From Arcobacter nitrofigilis DSM 7299 (GTDB lineage: Bacteria; Campylobacterota; Campylobacteria; Campylobacterales; Arcobacteraceae): 64,000 nucleotides of DNA. Under the pieces are notes generated by a model. It made no database searches and had not been told where the DNA came from. It saw nothing but the letters and a program-made list of their open reading frames with translations. The stretch covers positions 2,356,001-2,420,000 of the forward strand of contig NC_014166.1 of assembly GCF_000092245.1 (NCBI RefSeq). Reading direction: 5' to 3'. Below, one piece after another: positions 5,169 through 39,038 of the stretch (position 1 is the stretch's first letter; the number at the start of each line of letters is the position of its first letter). Position numbers and translations under genes: made by a program.

Positions 5169-6505
5169 CCGAGGCAGAAAGCTCCAAACATCACGTCCAA
5201 CATCTGGTCATTCTCATATGGTCTTGTTATTAATGAAATATTCTCAATAGCTTCATGTATATTGTGAGCAAAAAATTCTAATTCACCAGTCATCAAGGGA
5301 GTTTTTGCTTCTTGTACATGGTATAAAGTTTGCTCCACTGCTTCCACTTGTCTTTTTGAGATCAAAGTCATATCATCATCATGGGAATTGTTATCTAAAA
5401 TTGTTTCTATTTTTTTTACTAAAGTACTAATACTATTTTTTGTACTTAATTCTATATATTCATCTTTTAATTGTGTTTTATCAAATTTTGATTCTAAGTC
5501 AATTTTATTTAATACTATTATTTTTTCTTTATTTTCTATCTCATCTAAAATATTTAAAATCTTTTTATCTTCATCATCACAAACTTTTGAATTATCAAAT
5601 AGTGAGATAATTATATCTGCTTCATTTACAGCACTTAAAGACTTCTCTATTCCAATTCTCTCAATAGTATCACTAGCTTCTCTAATACCTGCTGTATCAA
5701 CTATTTTGATAATATGCGTACCAATTTTAACAGACTCTTCTATAGTATCTCTTGTGGTTCCTGCAATATCACTAATAATCGCCCTATCAAAATTTAAAAG
5801 TTTGTTTAAAAGTGAAGATTTCCCAACATTTGGTTTTCCTATAATTGCTACTTTGAAACCTTCGATTAGACCTTCTCTTCTTTTACTTGATTCTAACGTT
5901 TCAGATAATTTAACTACTATTTTTTCTATTTTCTTTTCTATTTGCTCAAAAATATCACTTGGTAAATCATCTTCAGCATAATCAATGCTAACTTCAGTAT
6001 ATGCAAGCATAAAAAGTAAATCTTCTCTAATATCATTTACAAAATTTGTAAGTTCACCTTTTAATTGTCGTGCTAATAATTTAACAGCATCTTCGCTTCT
6101 TGCTTCTATAAGTTTTGCTATTGCTTCTGCTTTTGAAAGGTCAATTTTATTATTTAAAAAGGCTCTTTTTGAAAATTCACCTGGATTTGCTAATCTTGCA
6201 CCTAATTTTATAAGTTCATTTAAAATTATATTTGAAATAGCTATTCCACCATGACATTGAAACTCAACAATATCTTCACCAGTAAAAGAGTTTGGATTTT
6301 TAAAATAAATTAAAAGTGCTTCATCTATAATTTCATTATCACTATTGTATATACTAGATAAGGTTGCTAATCTTGGATTTAAGTTAGTTCTTTTTGAAAG
6401 AGTTAAAGCAAGTGGCAAAGCATCTTTACCACTTAATCTTATAATTGAGATTGAGCCAATTCCATTGGCTGTTGCAATTGCAGCAATTGTATCAAATGAA
6501 TCCAT
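5162..6505 (-). CDS. mnmE: tRNA modification GTPase MnmE (TrmE/ThdF)
   Basis: With MnmG it installs the carboxymethylaminomethyl group on the wobble uridine of certain tRNAs. The 447 residues show the N-terminal formyl-THF-binding domain (1-118, with ALLIYFKNPNSFTGED), a helical domain, and an inserted G domain: P-loop GKPNVGKS at 223-230, GTTRD near 253, DTAGIRE near 272 and NKID near 337. The C-terminal catalytic cysteine is in FCLGK at the very end. It is the last gene of the rpmH-rnpA-yidD-yidC-jag-mnmE operon, 3 bases after jag. Confidence 0.97.
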   Translation of the reverse strand: MDSFDTIAAIATANGIGSISIIRLSGKDALPLALTLSKRTNLNPRLATLSSIYNSDNEIIDEALLIYFKNPNSFTGEDIVEFQCHGGIAISNIILNELIKLGARLANPGEFSKRAFLNNKIDLSKAEAIAKLIEARSEDAVKLLARQLKGELTNFVNDIREDLLFMLAYTEVSIDYAEDDLPSDIFEQIEKKIEKIVVKLSETLESSKRREGLIEGFKVAIIGKPNVGKSSLLNKLLNFDRAIISDIAGTTRDTIEESVKIGTHIIKIVDTAGIREASDTIERIGIEKSLSAVNEADIIISLFDNSKVCDDEDKKILNILDEIENKEKIIVLNKIDLESKFDKTQLKDEYIELSTKNSISTLVKKIETILDNNSHDDDMTLISKRQVEAVEQTLYHVQEAKTPLMTGELEFFAHNIHEAIENISLITRPYENDQMLDVMFGAFCLGK

Positions 6506-35636: not shown

Positions 35637-35757
35637 TCTCTTGAAGAACAAGTTCTCCTATTCTGTTATTTTTACCTTTCAGTATTTAGTCACTTCGTTC
35701 CGATATGTATTGACGAAAAGTAAGCAAAAACAAGAAGATTTAGGTGTTTATGAGAGT
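35637..35757. repeat. Short copy of the gntP-flanking repeat family
   Basis: Its left end CTCTTGAAGA, an internal 27-bp word (35707-35733, containing GACGAAAAGTAAGC) and its right end TTTAGGTGTTTATGAGA are all shared, in the same order and orientation, with the large element at 37297-37887. The 27-bp word is identical in both (37336-37362). It looks like an internally deleted copy. Confidence 0.7.
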
Positions 35758-35805: not shown

Positions 35806-37146
35806 TTAAAGTAAAATCCCAGCTAATAAATAAACAATAGCAATAGTTACAAGACCTTGAAGTAAAGTAGCTGTAGTATATGCTTTATATGCAGTTGCTA
35901 CATCCATTTGACTAAATCTTGATACAACCCAAAAGAAACTATCATTTGCATGACTTACAGTCATTGCTCCTGCCCCAATTGCCATTACTGTTAATACTTT
36001 TCCAAGTTCACTATCTAAACCTAGACTTGCAAGTAAAGGATAAATTATAGTAGAAGTTACAACTAATGCGGTTGTTGATGAACCTTGAGCTGATTTTAAA
36101 GCGGCTGCAATAATAAAAGGAACAAGAATACCTAAACTTAGGGTTTGAAGAACATCACCTAAATATGCTCCTATCCCACTTGCTTTTAACACAGCCCCTA
36201 AAGCTCCACCTGCACCTGTGATAATTAAAATCTCACCTGCATTTTTAACCCCTTCACCTATCCAACCTGACAATCTCTCTTCATCAAATTTTGGTAAAAG
36301 CATCGTAGCAAATAGTAAACCAATAAATAAAGCATTTGTAGGATTTCCTAAAAATATAAATAATTTATAAATAGAAGTTTCACTCATATCTTTAAAAACA
36401 AGTTTTATTATACTAGCTAATGCCATTAAAAGAATTGGAATAAAAATAGGTGCAAAAGATTTAAAAGCACTTGGTAATTCTCCATATTTTTCAATAACTT
36501 CACTATCTTTTTCCAAATCCACAAGAGTATCTTCTCCACTTTTATAGATTTTTCCAGAACGCAAAGCCCAAAAATAACCTGCAAGCATTGTTATGATAGA
36601 TATAAAAATACCAAAGATAATTACAAGTCCTAAGTTATCAACCATCAAATTACCTGCTGCTGCAATAGGACCAGGTGTTGGAGGAACTAAAGTATGAGTT
36701 GCGAAAAGTCCAGTTGCCAAAGCGACACTCATAGCAACACCAGAAACTTTTAATTGCTTAACCATAGAGCGTTTTAAAGCATTTAAGATTACAAATCCAC
36801 TATCACAAAAAACAGGAATAGAAACAATATATCCAATTACTGACATGGCTAATACAGGTCTTTTCTTACCAACAATTTTTAAAATAACATTTGCCATCGT
36901 AATAGCAGCACCACTTTTTTCAAGTATTACTCCAATAATAGTTCCAAGAACAATCACAATACCAATATAAGCTAATATTCCACCAAAGCCTTTGGTCATA
37001 GTACTTGCAATTTCATTGTAGCCCATACCAACACTGATTGCGATACCATACGCTGCAATTAATAAAGCAATAAATGGATGTAATTTCCACTTGCTTGTAG
37101 CAAGAACAATAAAAATAACGGCAAGTAATAAAATAACTACTAACAT
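35806..37146 (-). CDS. GntP family permease (gluconate/organic acid:H+ symporter)
   Basis: The ATG at 37146 is preferred (446 aa): it has AAAAGGA upstream and begins MLVVILLLAV, whereas the longer frame adds 19 AT-rich residues without a ribosome site. Around twelve membrane helices. GntP features include GYNEIASTMTKGFGGILAYIGIVIVLGTIIGVILEKSGAA, IPVFCDSGFVILN, HTLVPPTPGPIAAAG and MTVSHANDSFFWVVS. Substrates in the family are gluconate, D-serine or other hydroxy acids; no kinase or dehydrogenase gene is adjacent to decide. The gene is bracketed by two copies of a non-coding repeat. Confidence 0.92.
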   Translation of the reverse strand: MLVVILLLAVIFIVLATSKWKLHPFIALLIAAYGIAISVGMGYNEIASTMTKGFGGILAYIGIVIVLGTIIGVILEKSGAAITMANVILKIVGKKRPVLAMSVIGYIVSIPVFCDSGFVILNALKRSMVKQLKVSGVAMSVALATGLFATHTLVPPTPGPIAAAGNLMVDNLGLVIIFGIFISIITMLAGYFWALRSGKIYKSGEDTLVDLEKDSEVIEKYGELPSAFKSFAPIFIPILLMALASIIKLVFKDMSETSIYKLFIFLGNPTNALFIGLLFATMLLPKFDEERLSGWIGEGVKNAGEILIITGAGGALGAVLKASGIGAYLGDVLQTLSLGILVPFIIAAALKSAQGSSTTALVVTSTIIYPLLASLGLDSELGKVLTVMAIGAGAMTVSHANDSFFWVVSRFSQMDVATAYKAYTTATLLQGLVTIAIVYLLAGILL

Positions 37147-37203
37147 AAAAATTCCTTTTATTTTTTTGATTTTAAAAATTAATATTAGAATAAAGTATAT
37201 CAA

Positions 37204-38009
37204 AAAAAATGAATATTTAATACTTTTTTTTACTCTAAAAACTTCCGATAAATTTTTAATATCCTCTGTTTTATCTGCATAATATTTTTTACTTTATTCT
37301 CTTGAAGACTTGCCGTCTCCGCTTTTCTTACTTTTGTATTGACGAAAAGTAAGCAAAAACAACTACGGCTGCGAAGCCAAAGGTTCCCTCACTTATTATT
37401 TTTATCTTTTCTGATTGGTAAAACTCGTTTATTAAAACTTCCATTTAGGAACTTTTAAACACTCAGACAGTTACCAATCTTGTTTAGAAAAGAGAAAGAT
37501 AAACGTTCGGCTTCTGTAGATGTAGTAATATCTTTTGGTGTCTTTTTAATAATAATTTGAACAATCTTTTAGTAATTGAGAATACAAGAAATCAAGAATC
37601 TAAACAATCAAAAATGCAAATGTCCTTATCCCACCTTTATTCCAACATTTGCAAAAGCCGAATGTTTATTTCTCTTTTAGGAAAAGATTTGTAACTGTTT
37701 GAACATAATAAATATGCTAATAGCATGTTTTTATGTGAGTTTTACAAGTCAGAAAAGATAAATAACAAGTGAGGGAACCCGAAGGGCTTTGATACGGTTG
37801 GTGGTTTTCTCAAAGAGAGTGCAAGCACAAGGCTTACTTTGTCCACACAAAGTAAGAGAAGCGAATACCTTTAGGTGTTCATGAGAAGCATTTTCATATC
37901 TTATTAATTAAATAAGTATCCTCGTATCTGCATGATATAATAAAACATTCCCAAAATATAGACAGAAATTCATTCTGTTAATTTATAAATAATAGAAAAA
38001 AAATTAATT
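37204..38009. other. 806-bp gene-free region filled by a large imperfect inverted repeat
   Basis: No gene was seen in any frame. Positions 37297-37887 form one long imperfect palindrome (separate entry). The left 90 bases hold the permease promoter; the right 120 bases are plain AT-rich sequence after the AraC-type gene stop. Confidence 0.7.
37297..37887. repeat. 591-bp imperfect inverted-repeat element
   Basis: The two halves pair over most of their length, about a centre near 37590. Best arms: 37382-37426 with 37737-37779 (start GGTTCCCTCACTT, about 85-90 percent complementary); 37461-37515 with about 37653-37706 (around AGCCGAA-n-GTTTAT); and 37320-37354 with 37832-37863 (CGCTT-n-TCTTACTTT). 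The outer ends are TTCTCnTGAA and its complement. No open frame spans it. A short relative with the same ends lies at 35637-35757, on the other side of the permease gene. Confidence 0.8.
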
Positions 38010-39038
38010 TTAGAGATTTTTTTCTTTCCACTGAGTAGGAGTTATTCCATACCATTTTTTAAAAGCTCTAAAAAATATACTTATATCAAGATAACCAATG
38101 TTTAAAGATATTGTTAACAAATCTATATTTCTTGAAAGATAATAAATAGATAATTTTTTTCTAACTTCTAATAAAATTTTACTAAAACTGGTGCCTTCTT
38201 CTTTTAACTTTTTTTGTAATACTCTAGGAGTTAATCCAGCTTTTAAAGAAATACTTTTAAGTGATATATCTAATTGTGTTGAAGATATTAAAATTAGTCC
38301 TGAAATTTTTTCTTTTAATCCACCCTCATTTAATTTTAAATTTAGTGCATCTTCTGCTTCTTTTTCAAATACTTTTAATAAATATTCGTTTGCTGATATA
38401 GTTTCAATTTTTATACAATTTTTACTAAAATGAATTGAATTTTCTTCTTGACAAAAAAATGTTTTTATCCCAACTACTTTTTTATCTTCTAGGGGAAAAG
38501 TTGGTTCTTCTTGTATAAATTTCATATATGATGGTTCGATACTTTTAGGAATAATATAATTAATTAAATGAATAATATTAAAAAAATGTATCATTACAAG
38601 ATAATTTTCCAAGTCAACTAAAATACCATTTTCATCATGGAAATACAACACTATTTTGTAGCCATCTTCATCATCAGTAAAAACTAACTTCATTTTTTTA
38701 CCAATTAAAGCATAATATTTGCAAAACTTGCTCAAAGCTTCATGTACATCTTTTGAGTGAATCATTAAATAACCCAATATCCCTAGATTATTTGGAGTGG
38801 AGTGTTTTGCTAGATTATATAAAATTGTATAATCTTTCTTTTCATCTAAAACACTTAAAATTGGATCTTTTAAAAATGACATGCCAACTGTAAAATCATC
38901 TTGTGCAATTATTTTAGAAGTTATTCCTTTTCTTTCTAAAAATTTTTTTAAATTAAAATTAGATTCTTTTTCTAAAATACCTAATATCATCAATGCAATT
39001 TTTAATGGTAGCTGAGCTTCACTGTTTTTATACGCCAA
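38010..39038 (-). CDS. AraC family transcriptional regulator
   Basis: The 342 residues have an N-terminal sensor domain (about 10-220) of the kind found in OruR/ArgR-like AraC regulators (GILGYLMIHSKDVHEALSKFCKYYALIG near 85) and a C-terminal double helix-turn-helix: SLKSISLKAGLTPRVLQKKLKEEGTSFSKILLEVRKKL, then LTISLNIGYLDISIFFRAFKKWYGITPTQWKE. It is divergent from the HemJ-like/DUF3817/rhodanese cluster (82 bases to that start), which is the natural target. The inducer is unknown. Confidence 0.9.
   Translation of the reverse strand: MAYKNSEAQLPLKIALMILGILEKESNFNLKKFLERKGITSKIIAQDDFTVGMSFLKDPILSVLDEKKDYTILYNLAKHSTPNNLGILGYLMIHSKDVHEALSKFCKYYALIGKKMKLVFTDDEDGYKIVLYFHDENGILVDLENYLVMIHFFNIIHLINYIIPKSIEPSYMKFIQEEPTFPLEDKKVVGIKTFFCQEENSIHFSKNCIKIETISANEYLLKVFEKEAEDALNLKLNEGGLKEKISGLILISSTQLDISLKSISLKAGLTPRVLQKKLKEEGTSFSKILLEVRKKLSIYYLSRNIDLLTISLNIGYLDISIFFRAFKKWYGITPTQWKEKNL

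Follow-up and report, generated by a model that had tools for sequence, protein, structure and literature searches.

Dispersed palindromes in bacteria are mostly accounted for by small REPs with their RAYT transposases. The sequences known as REP, BIME and REPIN consist of palindromic units in inverted pairs, lie between genes and are mosaic (PMC3733652, PMC8266576); REP dimers are preferentially heterodimers, and large hairpins of this kind are thought to stall replication (PMC3733652). The REPs of E. coli moreover have a conserved bulge in the stem. Two other classes share traits with the element described here: MITEs, which are short and non-coding, carry terminal inverted repeats and exist in many copies, and integron attC sites, which are imperfect hairpins with conserved unpaired bases and have accessory, defence and toxin-antitoxin genes nearby. 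An intergenic survey that analysed Arcobacter sp. L mentions motifs that are seemingly structured DNA (PMC6429828); intergenic, structured and from a related genome, these resemble the present element by description, and Rfam gave no match. A literature search by motif and description, partial in its coverage, returned no account of the element.

The window, that is, the whole 64,000-nucleotide stretch of Arcobacter nitrofigilis DSM 7299 analysed here, contains at 37297-37887 a copy of a non-coding hairpin repeat that is scattered over the chromosome in this lineage and is built of two inverted units. In the way it works the element resembles a giant REPIN or BIME, but size, tag and transposase place it outside that group. 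The fold-back proposed for this interval in the original prediction is real, as an independent search recovered the arms 37401-37426/37737-37762 (92% complementary) and a second pair at 37382-37408/37753-37779 (85% complementary). Folded as RNA the interval reaches -212 kcal/mol versus -117.6 (sd 5.7) for dinucleotide shuffles (z -16.65), and folded as DNA -113.4 versus -53.3 (sd 5.1) (z -11.8), with none of the shuffles matching its folding energy. The proposed lack of coding capacity holds as well, no open reading frame of at least 80 aa crossing the interval, and the ends had been placed accurately, in that similarity to the other genomic copies starts at TTCTCTTGAAGA on the left and ceases at TTCATGAGAA on the right. 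The description as an inverted repeat stands, but not as a single simple one: each of the two inverted units is itself a long imperfect hairpin. On one side of the copy an AraC-type gene (38010-39038, minus strand) ends, and its other side faces the start of a GntP-type transporter gene (35806-37203, minus strand).

The extent of the dimeric element (37297-37887, taken without strand) is given by the fold z-score, by ends common to the copies and by unrelated flanks. Its left unit, of type A (37298-37540, plus strand), shares 91-95% identity with most of the genome's other A units, and its inverted right unit (37603-37886, minus strand) was assigned to type C by typing against reference units; the orthologous site of another species is also A|C (78-85%). 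Pattern search located a conserved core with an invariant bulge and covarying stems in both units, running from ACTGTCTGAG through the apex hairpin to GAGTTTTA at 37419-37471 (minus strand) in the left unit and from ACTGTTTGAA through the apex hairpin to GAGTTTTA at 37694-37744 (plus strand) in the right. The left terminal repeat TTCTCTTGAAGA with its small end hairpin (37298-37316, plus strand) is common to the copies, the hairpin stem varying in pairs, and the right terminal repeat (complement TTCTCATGAA), again with a small end hairpin (37869-37887, minus strand), was placed by copy alignment. Two outer hairpins were identified in the sequence, CTTACTTTT...AAAAGTAAG in the left unit (37327-37353, plus strand), a module found also in the Variovorax and Ilyobacter copies discussed below, and the terminator-like CTTACTTTG...CAAAGTAAG in the right unit (37833-37856, minus strand). 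Nested within the right unit is a 21-nt mini repeat, CAAAGAGAGTGCAAGCACAAG (37811-37831, plus strand), which forms two tiny hairpins and has 7 exact copies in the genome, the others being at 6438-6458, 84541-84561, 796040-796060, 983649-983669, 2055371-2055391 and 3007419-3007439 of the single contig (C1). This mini repeat occurs inside several hairpin elements and elsewhere, and other genera and families of the order have it in identical or almost identical form, with a reversed-pattern control of 0. Element positions 39-66, which belong to the left outer hairpin, recur by themselves as a 28-nt stretch of 100% identity at 35706-35733 (plus strand), 72 bp past the stop codon of the GntP-type gene.

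A search of the whole genome (3.19 Mb, one contig), which the original prediction had suggested as a check, gave 64 matches in approximately 25 places with unrelated flanks, a count that is approximate because the places were taken from the searches; many copies with common ends identify a dispersed repeat. The genome holds 15 dimers plus single units, with about 31 conserved cores. Upon alignment, the 15 dimeric copies have the common ends TTCTC(T/A)TGAAGA with a small end hairpin, beyond which the flanks are unrelated. Each dimer combines two inverted units of 230-290 nt that belong to three sequence types, A, B and C, and its composition is AB in 10 cases, BC in 3 and AC in 2; the absence of homodimers among the 15 (random pairing, p = 0.0013) agrees with the heterodimer preference of REP dimers (PMC3733652). 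The core pattern was counted 31 times in this genome, 12 and 15 times in two congeneric species and 12 times in one other genus of the family, with a count of 0 in most relatives and reversed-pattern controls at or near zero. Of the 27 element ends in this genome that face a stop codon, 15 are no more than 18 bp from it, all start-facing ends are at least 40 bp away from the start codon, and the genes at element sites are convergent in 8 cases, co-directional in 11 and divergent in 1.

Fold alignment of 29 units, including both units of the window, revealed with RNAalifold 27 base pairs, 19 of them doubly changed, with 95.8% of the cells paired. Doubly changed cells numbered 119 versus 35.3 ± 5.3 in shuffled alignments, and the covariation score was 0.419 versus 0.138 after shuffling and at most 0.108 with slid partners. 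The core motif reads ACTGTYTGA...GAGTTTT; its AACT/AGTT pairs are invariant in the 29 units, and the sole variation in the bulge GTYTGA is T or C at one position. The fold of the unit has been preserved through compensatory change around an invariant unpaired motif, and selection probably acts on the single-strand fold together with this motif close to its tip. Some matched changes could arise without selection, through templated repair of quasi-palindromes, but such repair would tend to remove the conserved bulge; the tip motif is probably recognised by something. That compensatory change maintains the fold, and that no transposase remnant is found nearby, contradicts the suggestion that two inverted mobile elements have decayed here. 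Accidental symmetry of AT-rich sequence, or an insertion-sequence pair in decay, has a negligible probability considering the fold z of -16.65, the family of copies and the covariation, with no evidence found in its favour.

The core extends far beyond the lineage. An exact scan of genome contigs for AACTGTTTGAGCG...CGAGTTTTG found at least 118 stretches, compared with about 1 match expected by chance in the collection as estimated from pattern length, and among the scan matches listed are records named Campylobacterales, Proteobacteria, Thermodesulfobacteriota, Bacillota, Bacteroidetes and Magasanikbacteria, as well as others. The motif is at the tip of long hairpins in Campylobacterota, Pseudomonadota, Thermodesulfobacteriota, Bacillota, Bacteroidota and Fusobacteriota. 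Fold z-scores, used in place of an arm-swapping control that related copies contaminated, had a median of -3.7 for the non-redundant cores versus -0.7 for random stretches, and fell below -4 in 24 of 53 cores versus 2 of 51 random stretches; because just 24 of the 53 pass this value, some cores lie outside long hairpins. The copy on a Variovorax megaplasmid measures 804 nt, shares the outer hairpin and contains two inverted cores; the copy in Ilyobacter (Fusobacteriota) carries the outer hairpin. The Variovorax paradoxus copy (L181, 1909-2712) is an intergenic mega-palindrome near a HigB-type toxin gene, with a predicted folding energy of -652.6 kcal/mol. Queried with the 34-nt core, E. coli yielded no matches and plasmids yielded few, and the window element was not found in phage and plasmid records. 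Between divergent genes lie 12 of 49 cross-phylum cores, and because such sites are common in this set, a terminator role is not general.

Orthologous sites in two congeneric species are mostly occupied, often with one arm different (B|A vs C|A, A|C vs B|C, B|C vs A|C, A|B vs B|C), so that one arm has been replaced while the site and the other arm stayed. In three species the window site, bounded by a BCCT-type transporter gene and purH, has the compositions A|C, A|C and B|C, and the adjoining genes differ in each of the three. In one relative, an AAA ATPase gene and a second gene, a pair that by eye is putatively PARIS-like, stand beside purH at this site, and the element is separated from the GntP gene by a gene pair resembling a ParE-type toxin-antitoxin module (for the site, L185, 280-2581; L038, 1948-2992). 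Flanks 250-350 bp from the elements were found less often in two relatives than pieces of the window (17/33 vs 28/31, p = 0.0009; 12/33 vs 26/31, p = 0.0001), which suggests, against a background of one syntenic block, that the neighboring genes vary above background. Some neighbors are candidate defence genes by their matches to defence models. No clean empty site of the whole element was seen, element-less sites also differing in their neighboring genes. The tree of A arms was mostly without resolution and was used for one supported pair only, in which the A arm at one site of this genome has its nearest counterpart in an A arm from a different site of genome G001.

No gene recurs beside the cross-phylum copies, the candidates being only spurious element translations and unrelated housekeeping genes. 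Y1 (RAYT) transposases gave one weak match in this genome, are absent from genomes G001 and G010, which have 12 cores each, and are weakly enriched in positive genomes (p = 0.03); a search for Y2/IS91 transposases found no match, its controls being likewise silent. Integron integrases show no association with the element (4 of 13 positive vs 15 of 77 other genomes, p = 0.46), with none in this genome, and in contrast to attC sites the element is dispersed singly rather than in cassette arrays and measures 500-600 nt. About 1 in 6 genomes of the order sample has an integrase scoring above the curated cut-off, for example at G001:C24:35791-36705, G010:C1:375435-376376 and G020:C16:15815-16759. 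Terminal inverted repeats, TTCTC(T/A)TGAA, are present at both ends, and target duplication was not detected (mean shared flank length 2.0 vs 2.46 shuffled).

As to whether the fold acts as DNA or as RNA, all 37 three-base apex gaps end in AG, fitting GNA loops, and several four-base gaps fit GNNA and not GNRA; GNA and GNNA loops are exceptionally stable in DNA. Stem mismatches comprise 50 G.T and 30 A.C, where a far larger G.T excess would be anticipated for a structured RNA, and the core strand is the same as that of co-directional genes in 16 of 28 cases and opposite in 12 of 28. The weak strand bias and the GNA/GNNA apex loops favor a DNA fold over a strand-specific RNA, without deciding the matter, and DNA would be the functional form. 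Of the long structured transcript that had been offered as one option, the strong structure stands and the strand bias is weak. We consider it unlikely that the element is a functional RNA, with the transcript structure serving as terminator, mRNA stabiliser or protein-binding 3' UTR: element ends that abut stop codons with terminator-like hairpins, and the strong covariation, would suit such a role, but the strand bias is small, cross-phylum cores sit between divergent genes and no Rfam family fits, the window having no match at gathering score and only sub-threshold chance matches at E up to 5. A strict MITE, or a RAYT-driven REPIN of a known transposase family, is very improbable. The terminal inverted repeats, the inverted dimer, the dispersal between genes, the heterodimer preference, as for REP dimers (PMC3733652), and the weak Y1 enrichment are consistent with it; however, no GTAG or CGTC tag is conserved in the 29-unit alignment, the units are several times too long (230-290 nt vs 20-50 in REPs), the core motif is near the tip, and the two carrier genomes G001 and G010 lack a RAYT gene. 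The large MITE that had also been suggested is borne out as a dispersed non-coding repeat with many copies and common ends, but not as a MITE in the strict sense, with no target duplication found and, among the genes beside the copies, no parent transposon; unlike a MITE, nearly the entire element folds, and compensatory change conserves the fold.

A passive repeat without a dedicated enzyme, in which horizontal transfer of neighboring genes spreads old intergenic hairpins and homologous recombination or gene conversion homogenises the copies, is somewhat doubtful as an explanation. Arms replaced at fixed sites, the A arm that is closest to one at a different site in G001, the variable neighboring genes and the absent target duplication are all consistent with it, but it leaves unexplained both an invariant unpaired motif common to several phyla and about 31 cores in one genome versus none in most relatives. 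Because two carrier genomes lack Y1 transposases, integrase is not associated, and neither a recurrent gene nor target duplication was found, we propose, at about even odds, that the element is a non-autonomous hairpin repeat which a trans-acting activity recognises in its folded single-stranded DNA form. The units would be recognised, for example, when DNA is taken up or at a replication fork, and copied or recombined by a trans-acting enzyme, with the result that units spread among intergenic sites and an arm from another place can take over from a resident one; terminator-like outer hairpins and a position just behind stop codons may explain why the host tolerates them. Of this account, spread and arm exchange are what was observed, along with the defined ends, the conserved fold, the core common to several phyla and the rule of heterodimers, and we infer the trans-acting enzyme and DNA as the form that acts. 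More tentatively, the elements may represent a cross-phylum class of giant paired-hairpin DNA repeats with the tip motif AACTGTTTGAGCG-GNA/GNNA loop-CGAGTTTTG, whose spread in the form of folded single-stranded DNA would depend on an enzyme or host process distinct from RAYT, DDE and integron systems. Compared with the small REPs, this is a much larger paired hairpin, in several phyla, with arms exchanged in place and no known enzyme, for the finding of which the folded core is a concrete bait.

The elements border regions where accessory genes, including those for defence and toxin-antitoxin systems, come and go. At one locus, single inverted units (L028, 1964-2231 and 7531-7769) enclose a complete type I restriction-modification system (HsdM, HsdS, HsdR), and the pair of units around this system is also kept in a second species (L052).
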